Part shown: positions 47,592 to 53,138 of the stretch, one piece after another | Position numbering within the stretch: the first letter of the stretch is position 1 | Layout of the letters: each line of letters starts with the position of its first letter | Assembly: GCA_903944895.1 (NCBI GenBank) | Contig: CAJATL010000219.1 | Location: forward strand, 1-64,000 | Source: an uncultured Bacteroidota bacterium | GTDB taxonomy: Bacteria; Bacteroidota; Bacteroidia; Bacteroidales; 4484-276 | DNA: 64,000 nt | Direction of reading: 5' to 3' | The notes under the pieces: generated by a model | What the model was told of the DNA's origin: nothing | Seen by the model: the letters and a program-made list of their open reading frames with translations, nothing else | Database searches by the model: none | Position numbers and translations under genes: made by a program

Positions 47592-47936
47592 AGGTTAAAA
47601 ATTAATTTTGAGTGTGCAAAAAAACTAAAATTCTTCCGGCATATTTCCTGCTAACAGCTTGTTTAACAAATTTTAACCCCTCAAATCTGTTAACAACAAA
47701 GCCTTTAGCGGGTTGAGGGGTTTTGGGTTTTCCGGGATGGCATCTGCAAACCAAAAAATGAGATTCATTATCAGCACAAACAACCTTAATTAGTATTTTG
47801 TATGATCAGATATCTGTTTATTTTACTTCAATGCCATAAAAATTGCCATCAGTTTGTCAGGTTTTTATCTCAACATCCTAAATTTTAATTTAAATGTGCT
47901 GGATTTTGAAAATCCAGGTCATCAAAACCAAAAAAA

Positions 47937-48104
47937 GACCTTGCGGAATGAAATTCTGATCATACGGAATGAAATTCTGACCATGCGGAATGAAATTTAA
48001 ATCATACGGAAAGGAATTTTGATCTAGAAAAATGAAATTCTGACCGTGCGGAGTGAAGATTTGACCTTACGAAGTGAACCATTTAGCATGCGTAATGAAG
48101 AATA
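47937..48104. repeat. Eight degenerate tandem copies of a 21-bp unit (consensus GACCATGCGGAATGAAATTCT)
   Basis: Units at 47937, 47958, 47979, 48000, 48021, 48042, 48063, 48084, no length variation. Confidence 0.92.
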
Positions 48105-48232: not shown

Positions 48233-49174
48233 ATGGCAAAGAGTAAAAAAAACAGGGAGTTTAATTTCGAAGTCAGCGAACTTCTGATTAAATGTGAAAC
48301 CACACTCGTTGTTGCCCTTCGCGACAAAGACCAACTGCTCGAAGTAGGCTTTACCAACGAAAAACGGCTTGCATTCCAGGCCCAGTTAGATGCATTAAAA
48401 CTCATATCGACCGACGATTTTATGCTCGGTCAGCAGGTTGCACGCACGCAGGAAAAAGATACAGCACGCCTTGCCGTCGAAAAAAGCCTGCGAACCATCC
48501 TCGTCATTGCCGAAAACCTGTATGGCTCATCCTCGGGCAAATACCGGCAATTTGGAGGCGCAAACCTTGGCAAACTTGCCGACGACCAGTTGATACGCTA
48601 TGGCCGTAATGCCTCCGCAACAGCTACTTCGCTCTTGGCAGAGCTTCAGCCCGAAGGCGTTACCCCCGCAATGATTACCGCACTCAACACCAAGATTACC
48701 ACCTTCGACACCGCCCTCAACAATCAGATTACGGCTATCAGGCAGCGCGATATTACCACCGAAGAACGCACCACCAAAGCCAACGAAGTGTACCGCACCC
48801 TCGCCAAAATATGCACGCTTGGCAAAAATATCTGGTATGGCGTCAACGAAGCCAAATACAACGACTACGTAATTTACGACACCACTTCCGGCGACGCCTC
48901 CAAAGCCATCAATCCCGAATTTACGGGCATCCTTGCCGGCACCGTAGCCGACAACCAAACCAATGCACCCATCGCAGCCGCCGCTCTCGCTCTCAATGGC
49001 ACCCAACTAACCGCCATATCCGACGAATACGGCGAATTTAGCATCGACAACATCCCGCAAGGCACCTACACGCTTAACGCAACCGCCACCGGCTATCAGC
49101 CAGCAACCAAACCCAATATTATTATTAAAGCTGATGAACAGACGGATGTAACGGTGAAGATGGGGAAGGTTTGA
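48233..49174 (+). CDS. Hypothetical protein: N-terminal helical domain plus C-terminal carboxypeptidase-regulatory-like domain, no evident signal peptide
   Basis: N-term SELLIKCETTLVVALRDKDQLLEVGFTNEKRLAFQAQLDALKLI; C-term GILAGTVADNQTNAPIAAAALALNGTQLTAISDEYGEFSIDNIPQGTYTLNATATGYQP. Confidence 0.8.
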   Translation: MAKSKKNREFNFEVSELLIKCETTLVVALRDKDQLLEVGFTNEKRLAFQAQLDALKLISTDDFMLGQQVARTQEKDTARLAVEKSLRTILVIAENLYGSSSGKYRQFGGANLGKLADDQLIRYGRNASATATSLLAELQPEGVTPAMITALNTKITTFDTALNNQITAIRQRDITTEERTTKANEVYRTLAKICTLGKNIWYGVNEAKYNDYVIYDTTSGDASKAINPEFTGILAGTVADNQTNAPIAAAALALNGTQLTAISDEYGEFSIDNIPQGTYTLNATATGYQPATKPNIIIKADEQTDVTVKMGKV

Positions 49175-49246
49175 GAAGATGAAAAGTAATAAGTTTTTGA
49201 TGATATCTACTGGTTGCGGCAAGCCTCCCAAAGCACACTTCATAAT

Positions 49247-49825
49247 ATGAACGAACTTGAAAAAATAAACATTTTTAGACAATTTACTGACTTCAATGAT
49301 AGTGAATTGGAAATTATTATGCCTTATTTTGAACAGAAAAAGTTCAAGAAGAAATCTATTCTTTTGAATATTGGAAAAGTATCAAACGAAGTGTTTTATT
49401 TGATTAACGGTTGCATAAGACTTTATTGTGAAAAAGATGGAGAAGAACTTTCAACTTACTTTTTTACCGAAAATATGTTTGCAGGTTCTTATGACAGTTT
49501 CCTTTCTCGAAAGCTAAGTAAAGTAGCCATAGAGACATTGGAGGATTGCGAAGTCTTGGTTCTTTCTCACCAATCACAAGAAAAACTCTATGAGATATTT
49601 CCCAAAATGAACGAATTTATCAGAAAAGCTATCGAACAAAGGTTTGTAATATTACATGATTTGTTCATTTCTTATCTTTTAAACAGTCCGGAAGAAAGAT
49701 ATCTGACACTTATAAAAGATAGACCTGAATTGCTTCAACGAGTTCCGCAACACCAGATTGCTTCATTTCTTGGTATTACACCCGTTTCGTTAAGTCGAAT
49801 TAGAAATCGGGTTTTGAAAAAATAG
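49247..49825 (+). CDS. Crp/Fnr family transcriptional regulator
   Basis: In-frame Met at 49247 (MNELEKINIFRQF); cNMP-binding fold and C-terminal QIASFLGITPVSLSRIRNR HTH. Confidence 0.9.
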   Translation: MNELEKINIFRQFTDFNDSELEIIMPYFEQKKFKKKSILLNIGKVSNEVFYLINGCIRLYCEKDGEELSTYFFTENMFAGSYDSFLSRKLSKVAIETLEDCEVLVLSHQSQEKLYEIFPKMNEFIRKAIEQRFVILHDLFISYLLNSPEERYLTLIKDRPELLQRVPQHQIASFLGITPVSLSRIRNRVLKK

Positions 49826-49907: not shown

Positions 49908-50804
49908 ATGAAACAGCAAGATTTTAACAAAAGCAAAATTTACAAAAATGTTACAACAACAGTTAAGCTTAAAGGCAAGGAAGTAAAAGTTCACGGCCTA
50001 AGCATAGGAACAGTTGCTGTAAAAAGGAATTTCAAAACCAAAAATGGCTACGGCTCATTATCCAAGATTAATATCCTCTTAGGAAAAGAATATACAGAGT
50101 ATTTACCAATTTGGGTTTGGGTTATTGAACACCCAGAGGGCATAATTGTTATTGACACGGGCGAAAATGCTGAAAGCCTTGACATTGATAAATATCTTGC
50201 CAAAGAAAGCTTTTTTGCAAAATACCAGTTCAAGCATGCTTGCAAAGTAAAAATTCAACCTCAGGAGGAATTGAATCATCAATTAAATAAAATAAATATA
50301 AAAGTTGATGATGTAAAGCTAGTGATTTTAACCCATTTGCATTCCGACCACATTGATGGACTTAAATTTTTCCCTAAACAAGAAATTCTTATGGGCAAAT
50401 ATGAATTTTTACATCCTGACAATTGTTTTACAACTACATTGCCATCGTGGTTTAAACCTAATACAGTTGATTTTATTCAAAACAAAATTGAAGTTTTTAA
50501 CCAGGCTTATCCCATCTCTCAAAACGAAGATTTACTCTTAATCCCTACGCCAGGTCATACTTTAGGACACAATTCAGTTTTATTAAAGACCGATGATTTT
50601 GACATCATTTTTGCAGGAGACTCGTCCTATCATCAAGACCAGGTATTAAAAGGCGAAATGGCGGGTGCAAATACGGATTATAATAAAACAAAACAAACCT
50701 ACAGAAACTTTTTAGACTATGCCACACTTCGCAGAACAATTTATTTACCAACTCACGATGAAAATGCGGGACAAAGATTAGCGAGCAAATCGTTTTTAGT
50801 TTAA
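49908..50804 (+). CDS. MBL-fold metallohydrolase, AHL-lactonase-like
   Basis: VWVIEHPEGIIVIDTG, LTHLHSDHIDG, PTPGHTLGHNSVLL, FAGDSSYH. Confidence 0.88.
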   Translation: MKQQDFNKSKIYKNVTTTVKLKGKEVKVHGLSIGTVAVKRNFKTKNGYGSLSKINILLGKEYTEYLPIWVWVIEHPEGIIVIDTGENAESLDIDKYLAKESFFAKYQFKHACKVKIQPQEELNHQLNKINIKVDDVKLVILTHLHSDHIDGLKFFPKQEILMGKYEFLHPDNCFTTTLPSWFKPNTVDFIQNKIEVFNQAYPISQNEDLLLIPTPGHTLGHNSVLLKTDDFDIIFAGDSSYHQDQVLKGEMAGANTDYNKTKQTYRNFLDYATLRRTIYLPTHDENAGQRLASKSFLV

Positions 50805-50824: not shown

Positions 50825-50892
50825 TGGGCAGGCGCAAATAAATAGAGCTTCACATGGCCGGCACAACCCGGCAAAAAGCTCAAGCCTGCCCA
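50825..50892. repeat. Nested imperfect hairpin (three stems)
   Basis: TGGGCAGGC/GCCTGCCCA, GAGCTT/AAGCTC, GCCGG/CCGGC nested in order. Confidence 0.75.
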
Positions 50893-50911: not shown

Positions 50912-50970
50912 GTTGAACGAAATTAATGTACCGCATTTGTTTTAGATTAACCAGGAAGGGAAATGAGGGT
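50912..50970. repeat. Copy R1 of a ~55-bp dispersed island repeat
   Basis: GTTGAACGAAATTAATGTACCGCATTTGTTTTAGATTAACCAGGAAGGGAAATGAGGG. Confidence 0.75.
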
Positions 50971-51016
50971 TTAATGGAAGAATGAATTTTACTAAATTTG
51001 CAAAAAAGTAAAGATT

Positions 51017-51319
51017 GTGAATACAGCGATTGTAAATAGATTGACCGAATATTTTGCAAGTCAACCCATCGAAAGGGCATGGCTATTTGGTTCCTATGCC
51101 CGTTCGGAAGAAGACACAAAAAGTGATATTGATATTTTGGTCAATTTTATCCCGGATAGTAAAGTTACTTTGTTTAAATACATTCATATTGTAAACGATT
51201 TGCAGGCATTAACCGGCAAAAAAGTTGATCTGGTCGAAGATGGGCAATTAAAACAATTTGCAGTAATGAGCGCCGAAAACGATAAAATCCTGATTTATGA
51301 GCGGAAAACCAAGGAATAA
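51017..51319 (+). CDS. MntA-type nucleotidyltransferase (antitoxin of a HEPN/MNT pair)
   Basis: GSYARSEEDTKSDIDILV = GSx10DxD; GTG start; TAAATTTG -7-like motif at 50993. Confidence 0.88.
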   Translation: MNTAIVNRLTEYFASQPIERAWLFGSYARSEEDTKSDIDILVNFIPDSKVTLFKYIHIVNDLQALTGKKVDLVEDGQLKQFAVMSAENDKILIYERKTKE

Positions 51320-51641
51320 AGAGCGACTCGATCATATTATTGAGGCTATTGATAATATCTTTGAATTCACAGAAGGCAAGTCATTTGAAGCCTATAAAAA
51401 TGATAAAATCCTAAGATTTGCAGTTATTAAGAACCTTGAGATTGTTGGAGAAGCCGCGTATTTATTAACACAAGATTTCAGAGCGAAACACGATTCCATC
51501 GAATGGAATGAAATGATTGGAATGCGTCATATTTTGGTTCACGGTTACTATCAGATTAAAGATGAAATTATTTGGGCAACCATCGAAACCGAATTGAAAC
51601 CGCTAAGAGAAAAAATTGCATCGTTGCTCATCGAAAAGTAA
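51297..51641 (+). CDS. HepT-type HEPN (DUF86) ribonuclease toxin
   Basis: 114 aa; IGMRHILVHGYYQI carries Rx4HxY; overlaps the upstream MNT gene. Confidence 0.88.
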   Translation: MSGKPRNKERLDHIIEAIDNIFEFTEGKSFEAYKNDKILRFAVIKNLEIVGEAAYLLTQDFRAKHDSIEWNEMIGMRHILVHGYYQIKDEIIWATIETELKPLREKIASLLIEK

Positions 51642-51684
51642 AAACCGCCTTGGTCTTTCAAATCGTGACAAATAATGAAGCTCC

Positions 51685-51740
51685 TCTTGAATAAAATCAT
51701 TGCCTTGCCGTTGTTTTAGGCTAATCGGGAAAGGAAAATG
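51685..51740. repeat. Copy R2 of the ~55-bp dispersed island repeat
   Basis: CTTGAATAAAATCATTGCCTTGCCGTTGTTTTAGGCTAATCGGGAAAGGAAAATGATT. Confidence 0.7.
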
Positions 51741-51844
51741 ATTATGTTTGTAATGAATAAAAAACACCAAATGGTGCTGTTGGCTTGATATTAGGTTGGC
51801 AAACGGCACCTGAGGTGAGGCGAAAACGAGTTAAACGCAGGCAA

Positions 51845-52276
51845 ATGCAAAAAGAACAACCATACAAATGGATAGGTTTCAATAAAGGTAGTCACAGAGT
51901 AGCCTGGATAACATTGAAGGTCGTTGCTTCTGATATTAACGAAATCATTGATGCTTATCTTCCACAAGAATATCCAAACTTCCCATACGATTTTTGGAAA
52001 TGTTCTGCACGTAATGGTATTATCTATGGTTTAAAACGCGTTCCAAATTGTTGGCGTGTAGATATCATTGATATGAAAGCCCATCCTTGCCACACGAATT
52101 CGGCAATAATAGCCTATGCTTCATTGAGAGCATTTTGGGAAAAGGTTGGTTATAGTCCAAAAAAAGCCGAATTAGAACAATTGGAAAGGTTTGTTTATGA
52201 TAATTGGGGTAATATTGATCCTGCAGTAGCTGACCTGGAAGCATTTACGCTGATTAAAACACATCATAATGCCTAA
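51845..52276 (+). CDS. Hypothetical protein, no recognised family
   Basis: ORF opens with TTG at 51785; Met at 51845 (MQKEQPYKWIGFNKGSHRVAW) is the likelier start; 143 aa. Confidence 0.65.
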   Translation: MQKEQPYKWIGFNKGSHRVAWITLKVVASDINEIIDAYLPQEYPNFPYDFWKCSARNGIIYGLKRVPNCWRVDIIDMKAHPCHTNSAIIAYASLRAFWEKVGYSPKKAELEQLERFVYDNWGNIDPAVADLEAFTLIKTHHNA

Positions 52277-52335
52277 TAAACAGGAATTCATGCGGTCGGC
52301 ATGGCGAAGCATGATTCCGATAGCTAGCGGAACCG

Positions 52336-52396
52336 GTTGAACGAAATTATTGCCTTTTCGACAGTTTTAGAATAAACTGGAAAGGGAAATAATGGA
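52336..52396. repeat. Copy R3 of the ~55-bp dispersed island repeat
   Basis: GTTGAACGAAATTATTGCCTTTTCGACAGTTTTAGAATAAACTGGAAAGGGAAATAATGG. Confidence 0.75.
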
Positions 52397-52442
52397 ATCT
52401 AAAATCCATTTTGCTTACTTTAATTCTGTAGAAAGTATTTCC

Positions 52443-53138
52443 CTATTCAACATCTTCTTTTTTAATCAATCTTTGGATATCATTGATGTTTCCATAAAGC
52501 ACCACAATATCGCCTTCGGCAAATATGGTCTTGGACGAAGCAACGCCCTGCACACTTTTTATGCTTCTCGAAATACCAAAAATGTTCTTCTTTTCGGATG
52601 ATTTTATTGTAGTAAGCACAACAACATCATAATTTTTACGGATTTCGATTTCGGCAAGGGTTTTACCGATGTAACGCTTTGGGACTTCGGCTTCGACAAT
52701 ATTATATTCCCCGGCCAGTTCAAACGAATCGATCACACCCTGGATATTCAGTTTTTTTGCCCATCGTTCGGCGGTTTCTTCTTCGGGATGAACTATTTCA
52801 TCAACACCCATCGCCTCTAGCACCGTTTCGTGAAGCGCCGATACTGCCCGGCTGATGAGCCGCTTAACTTTAAACTGTTTCATGAGCGCAGTAGCCATAA
52901 TGTTGGCGCCTTCGTCTTCGCCAATGGCAACAATCACAATATCCGCGTCATTCAGCGGCAAATTGGTCATCGCCTGCGGGTCGGTCGAGTTGAGGCACAC
53001 TGCATGGGTGATCCGCTCCTTGATGGCCTCGACCTTTCCCATTTTATTATCTACACCAATTACTTCGTGACCAAGCCGGGTAAGCTTTTCGGCCAGTGAC
53101 GAACCAAAATTTCCCAGACCAATAATTATAAATTTCAT
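52443..53138 (-). CDS. TrkA family potassium uptake regulator (RCK domains)
   Basis: KFIIIGLGNFGSSLAEKLTRLGHEVIGVDNK (Rossmann), TrkA-C region; adjacent to trkH. Confidence 0.93.
   Translation of the reverse strand: MKFIIIGLGNFGSSLAEKLTRLGHEVIGVDNKMGKVEAIKERITHAVCLNSTDPQAMTNLPLNDADIVIVAIGEDEGANIMATALMKQFKVKRLISRAVSALHETVLEAMGVDEIVHPEEETAERWAKKLNIQGVIDSFELAGEYNIVEAEVPKRYIGKTLAEIEIRKNYDVVVLTTIKSSEKKNIFGISRSIKSVQGVASSKTIFAEGDIVVLYGNINDIQRLIKKEDVE

Follow-up and report, generated by a model that had tools for sequence, protein, structure and literature searches.

What do three copies of a short repeat signify when they are spaced between small accessory genes in front of trkA? This question is raised by one locus of the window, that is, the whole 64,000-nucleotide stretch of DNA analysed here, which comes from an uncultured Bacteroidetes genome. 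A preliminary description had read the copies (R1, R2 and R3) as a possible gene-capture or recombination platform. The locus contains the following features.

49214..49825, + strand: Crp/Fnr-like regulator, left side without a repeat box (Pfam PF00027, 1.3e-9)
49908..50804, + strand: MBL-fold hydrolase, lactonase-like (Pfam PF00753, 4.1e-15; AiiA-like 3e-22, below cut-off)
50835..50867, + strand: a further conserved box, weaker than the main one, 5' of R1, AATAAAYAGRNNTTCA... (nhmmer 4e-6 with a profile derived from its own copies at R1, R3, C2b and C12)
50912..50966, + strand: R1 box, upstream of mntA (nhmmer 2.3e-14; covariance model on the whole genome, 1.2e-12 for the R2 model)
50967..51010, + strand: promoter-like stretch immediately 3' of R1; TAAATTTG at 50993 matches TAnnTTTG (consensus from PMC9723704)
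51017..51319, + strand: MntA-like minimal nucleotidyltransferase antitoxin with the GSYARSEEDTKSDID motif (Pfam PF18765/PF01909; NCBIfam MntA 6e-13, below cut-off)
51297..51641, + strand: HepT-like RNase toxin with the RHILVHGY motif (Pfam PF01934, 3.9e-26)
51686..51741, + strand: R2 box, between hepT and the orphan gene (nhmmer 4.5e-16; blastn homology break against the sister species at its 3' edge, 51740)
51785..52276, + strand: orphan gene, start codon TTG (163 aa) or ATG at 51845 (143 aa); a PemK/MazF cassette is in its place in the sister species
52273..52305, + strand: the further, weaker box again, 5' of R3 (nhmmer 1.6e-6, same self-derived profile)
52336..52391, + strand: R3 box, end of the array, facing the 3' end of the convergent trkA (nhmmer 1.9e-14; ORF table)
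52443..53138, - strand: trkA, conserved right flank, convergent; collinearity between the two species resumes at 52433

The repeat box and its genes

The three boxes of ~55 bp lie in one orientation (+), and a three-copy nhmmer profile run on the window recovered them with the E-values listed above, from 1e-14 to 1e-16, which are optimistic in that the profile was made from the same copies. No further match was found in the window below E 0.3. The 19-base word GTTGAACGAAATTATTGCC, with up to 3 mismatches allowed, matched twice in the window against 0.02 matches expected, a count reached in none of 100 shuffles. The invariant positions, TTGAA..AAAT.A.TG and GTTTTAG..TAA.C.GG, agree with the consensus pattern proposed in the preliminary description, and its three repeats are real. 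All copies are intergenic. The left half of the box is poorly conserved (46-81% identity between copies), no hairpin common to the copies was found, and Rfam held no known RNA family for the box, the sole match being a chance snoRNA below the gathering score. Moreover, the weaker second box is common to four copies (R1, R3, C2b and C12), in which it lies 45-75 nt upstream of the main box.

The genes separated by the boxes were correctly assigned from the outset as an MBL-fold hydrolase, an MntA/HepT pair, a gene without known family and trkA. The MntA/HepT genes are adjacent, their translations carry the GSX10DXD and RX4-6HXY motifs, and both match Pfam families, as is characteristic of type VII systems; the NCBIfam equivalog cut-offs were not reached. 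The pair encodes both proteins of a type VII MntA/HepT toxin-antitoxin and shows nothing notably different from it; it is cargo of the repeat-bounded locus and not the finding itself. The 163-aa orphan gene belonged to no Pfam, NCBIfam or PADLOC family, and no homologue was detected in 392 other genomes of the order, in IMG/VR or in plasmids. The proposed layout of one repeat per cassette applies to MntA/HepT and to the 163-aa gene, but not to the pair formed by the Crp-like regulator and the MBL gene, whose left side is without a box.

Distribution of the box

A pattern search and two covariance models, both of them sequence-only, detected six full copies on three contigs of the genome (7.17 Mb), namely R1-R3 and three more on two further contigs; this count covers full copies detectable by genome search, which strongly diverged copies could escape, and one such diverged copy, at C12:17866-17914, was recognised by eye only. 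The genome-wide search returned the following copies beyond the window.

C2, 9825-9880, - strand: full box
C2, 7978-8032, - strand: full box
C12, 17415-17466: full box
C12:17931: short tail-only copy

These copies also border accessory or orphan genes. A T9SS/SBBP-repeat gene stands between the two C2 boxes, the C12 box lies between a 212-aa orphan gene and a 127-aa orphan gene, and the tail copy is upstream of an AAA_33 kinase gene and a Thg1-like gene, neither of which was matched in the sister assembly G001. After the C12 boxes, at L042:3521-4733, the AAA_33 kinase adjoins the Thg1-like tRNA guanylyltransferase gene.

Among the 59 genomes searched (this one and 58 relatives), real copies were present only in this genome and in G001, the one other species of the genus. 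A search of reduced sensitivity in 392 other genomes of the order gave no box at E 1e-4, and a degenerate right-half pattern applied to 84,980 GTDB species hit one contig, CAIYZW010000461.1, which agrees with contig C461 of G001 in number, length and match position. A weak match in an order member (G044) falls inside a coding frame and another on contig C18 lies inside a histidine-kinase gene; both were discarded as chance. The box was not found in IMG/VR (by pattern), in phages or in plasmids, and a phage or plasmid origin was ruled out for want of such a match. As far as the collections searched show, the box thus appears to be genus-restricted. In G006, from another genus of the family, trkH-trkA is followed by other genes, and the island is not beside trkA.

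Comparison with the sister species

Both genomes are metagenome-type draft assemblies, 96% complete here and 84% complete in G001, and G001 contig ends coincide with the region of interest. Contig C461 of G001 has the order box, MntA/HepT, box, 77-aa protein with a PemK/MazF toxin (PF02452, 3.7e-24), partial box and trkA. In a blastn alignment, the window and this contig matched from 50935 to 51740 at 90% and from 52433 onward at 80%. The slot between R2 and R3 holds the 163-aa orphan gene here and the 77-aa protein with PemK/MazF in G001; the orphan gene has no G001 counterpart, and that of R3 is only partial, a weak match with E 0.003 in its own contig and 0.17 in a larger set. The left homology break is inside R1, and the next coincides with the 3' edge of R2. 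Downstream of R1 the two species closely resemble each other but upstream of it they have nothing in common, whereas at R2 the upstream side is common to both and the downstream side is not, and MntA/HepT in between is kept in both at ~90% DNA identity. Upstream of R1, the window has the Crp-MBL genes, and the ends of G001 contigs C764 and C461 resemble the DNA to either side of the 212-aa cassette on C12; the 212-aa gene itself was not found in the G001 assembly. Judging by these contig ends, the 212-aa cassette probably changed locus.

A second locus varied in another manner. The C2 unit of box, SBBP gene and box (2005 bp) is absent from G001, and both neighbour genes abut there in contig C938. 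This empty allele contains no box, both being absent along with the gene, and the boxes therefore cannot be fixed landing sites at C2. The exact repeat-to-repeat excision leaving one box that had been envisaged was not seen. The expectation that the copies flank variable accessory genes was borne out by the R2-R3 cassette, which differs between species with a break at the R2 edge, and by the presence and absence of the C2 unit. The locus is thus not an invariant syntenic island with the repeat at three sites only. Five homology breaks were mapped: three are located in a box or within ~25 bp of it, and the other two, those on the right-hand side, lie 40-80 bp beyond one. The boxes delimit variable cassettes, which suggests that the repeat is a place where accessory genes may be exchanged. 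The independent exchange events are put at two to three, from two genomes, and may have run in either direction.

The breaks at or inside R1 and R2 are also what a site-specific recombinase (tyrosine or other) acting in trans on the box would leave, in an integron-like mobilisation by an unrelated system. Such a reading would suit the direct tandem box-gene-box arrays and the several XerC/D-like tyrosine recombinases encoded in the genome; we nevertheless regard it as distinctly unlikely, since no recombinase gene was seen adjoining the copies, the left half of the box varies between copies to the extent given above, no hairpin is conserved, the empty allele has no box and there are only six copies. 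More improbable still is an undescribed, non-integron cassette-exchange system of Bacteroidetes with the box as its recombination site, in which a recombinase acting in trans would exchange accessory genes, toxin-antitoxin genes included, among chromosomal slots bounded by the repeat.

The boxes themselves were compared between the species. Those at the same position are 72% (R1/g1a) and 73% (R2/g1b) identical, and those at different positions within the genome are up to 84% identical. Same-position boxes are hence no more alike than different-position boxes, and they are less alike than the neighbouring MntA/HepT DNA. This lower identity than that of the flanking genes fits a turnover of the box with its cassette and not an inherited conserved operator; with eight copies only, the comparison is suggestive of such turnover.

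The placement of the box before genes would nonetheless be natural for an ordinary regulatory site, an upstream activator or operator of a small accessory-gene regulon. Five of the six full copies are directly upstream of a gene of the same orientation, and several directly precede a promoter-like stretch. A TAnnTTTG-bearing stretch, TAnnTTTG being the -7 consensus of Bacteroidetes (PMC9723704), lies 3' of the box in R1 and in the sister copies g1a and g1b. However, R3, the exception, is a box without a gene of its own, the sister serA orthologue has no box, the copies are at variable loci and their identity at orthologous positions is below that of the flanking genes, so that regulation on its own is a quite implausible account of the box.

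Relation to known element classes

The resemblance to integron cassette arrays was examined with the attC criterion, in which RYYYAAC is paired with GTTRRRY across an imperfect hairpin. As in integrons and CALINs, small accessory genes stand in tandem and in one orientation with one repeat per gene, the cargo includes a toxin-antitoxin, and GTTGAAC of R1 and R3 matches the core site GTTRRRY. The core site is matched, however, in only three of eight copies, RYYYAAC did not occur within 150 bp upstream of any of the eight, and the clusters contained no pair complementary at 6 or more of the 7 bases. The best match to the IntI profile TIGR02249 was 116.7 bits against a cut-off of 265 in this genome, and lower in G001. 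IntI is not required for a CALIN. Unlike integron arrays, the locus has no attC cores or hairpins and no IntI, its repeat is mainly before rather than after the gene, and its empty site has no repeat. A cassette array without integrase is therefore next to impossible, and the integron/CALIN reading was rejected for lack of an inverse core, a shared hairpin and IntI. A dedicated gene-capture platform likewise found no footing, with no attC, no integron integrase and no recombinase gene beside the copies.

Another possibility considered was a non-autonomous mobile element (MITE-like or of another kind) that lands in intergenic DNA and brings a promoter; the box would then mark variable islands for no other reason than that these tolerate insertions. 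Every copy is intergenic, TAnnTTTG follows R1, g1a and g1b, and at C2 both boxes are missing along with the gene, as such an element might produce. At the ends of the C2 insert, however, the longest inverted match was 7 nt and the longest direct match 8 nt, where shuffles averaged 6.3 with a maximum of 11. Neither inverted repeats nor a target duplication exceeded chance, and the reading as ends of a mobile insertion cassette or IS was rejected. Furthermore, the orientation relative to the next gene is constant except at R3, which has no gene, and neighbouring gene changes coincide with box borders; an independently inserting element is thus an unlikely explanation. Mobile insertion cassettes and MITE-bounded passenger genes (for example PMC5444012 and PMC4619425) are likewise moved without a transposase of their own and have short repeats at their borders; the present boxes differ in being direct repeats and in lacking both target duplications and terminal inverted repeats.

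Among described systems, the minimal mobile elements (MMEs) of Neisseria with NIME/dRS3 repeats come closest (PMC3898611). In these elements cassettes swap by homologous recombination, and the intergenic repeats have been proposed to raise the rate (PMC3898611). There, too, one slot holds different whole-gene cassettes in different strains and short intergenic repeats flank the exchange sites (PMC3898611). The mark of a minimal mobile element, namely that different genomes have different whole-gene cassettes within one pair of conserved borders, was found in the slot from R2 to trkA. What defines an MME in Neisseria is its conserved flanking genes, and dRS3 occurs in hundreds of copies with 6-bp inverted ends (PMC3898611), whereas the box described here is an unrelated, non-palindromic 55-bp repeat with six copies, several per array and usually directly before a gene. 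A high-copy dRS3 pattern, ATTCCC(N8)GGGAAT, is absent from the box consensus, which has six copies only.

Proposed mode of exchange

We lean towards the explanation that the box, a dispersed intergenic repeat specific to this genus, accompanies small accessory cassettes at their borders and recombines around them, much as in the Neisseria MMEs with their intergenic repeats. A resident box would recombine with a box on incoming or displaced DNA and the intervening gene would be swapped, as is inferred from the 55 to 105 bp that the copies, all in one orientation, have in common. The box, and the promoter often located 3' of it, would then keep a newly arrived gene expressed. No enzyme for the exchange was found; homologous or homology-assisted illegitimate recombination could suffice, in which case a dedicated recombinase would not be needed, and homologous or illegitimate recombination is probably the route. 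If this is true, the locus offers a small, testable case of toxin-antitoxin and orphan gene swapping at fixed slots of Bacteroidetes without integrons, transposases or phage, in which a defined repeat is the marker of swapping. In addition, the repeat could serve as a probe for the cassette pool of the genus.

Features to the left of the locus

Collinearity with the sister species ends at 47719. Just past this point, at 47937-48078, lies a diverged tandem array with a 21/42-bp unit (CGGAATGAAATTCTGATCATA), upstream of a gene at 48233-49174 whose product has a carboxypeptidase-regulatory-like C-terminus. The last ~150 bp of this gene recur as fragments at C12 and on several G001 contigs, and one fragment is at the left end of the C12 cassette group; these recurring 3' fragments are apparently a dispersed remnant.
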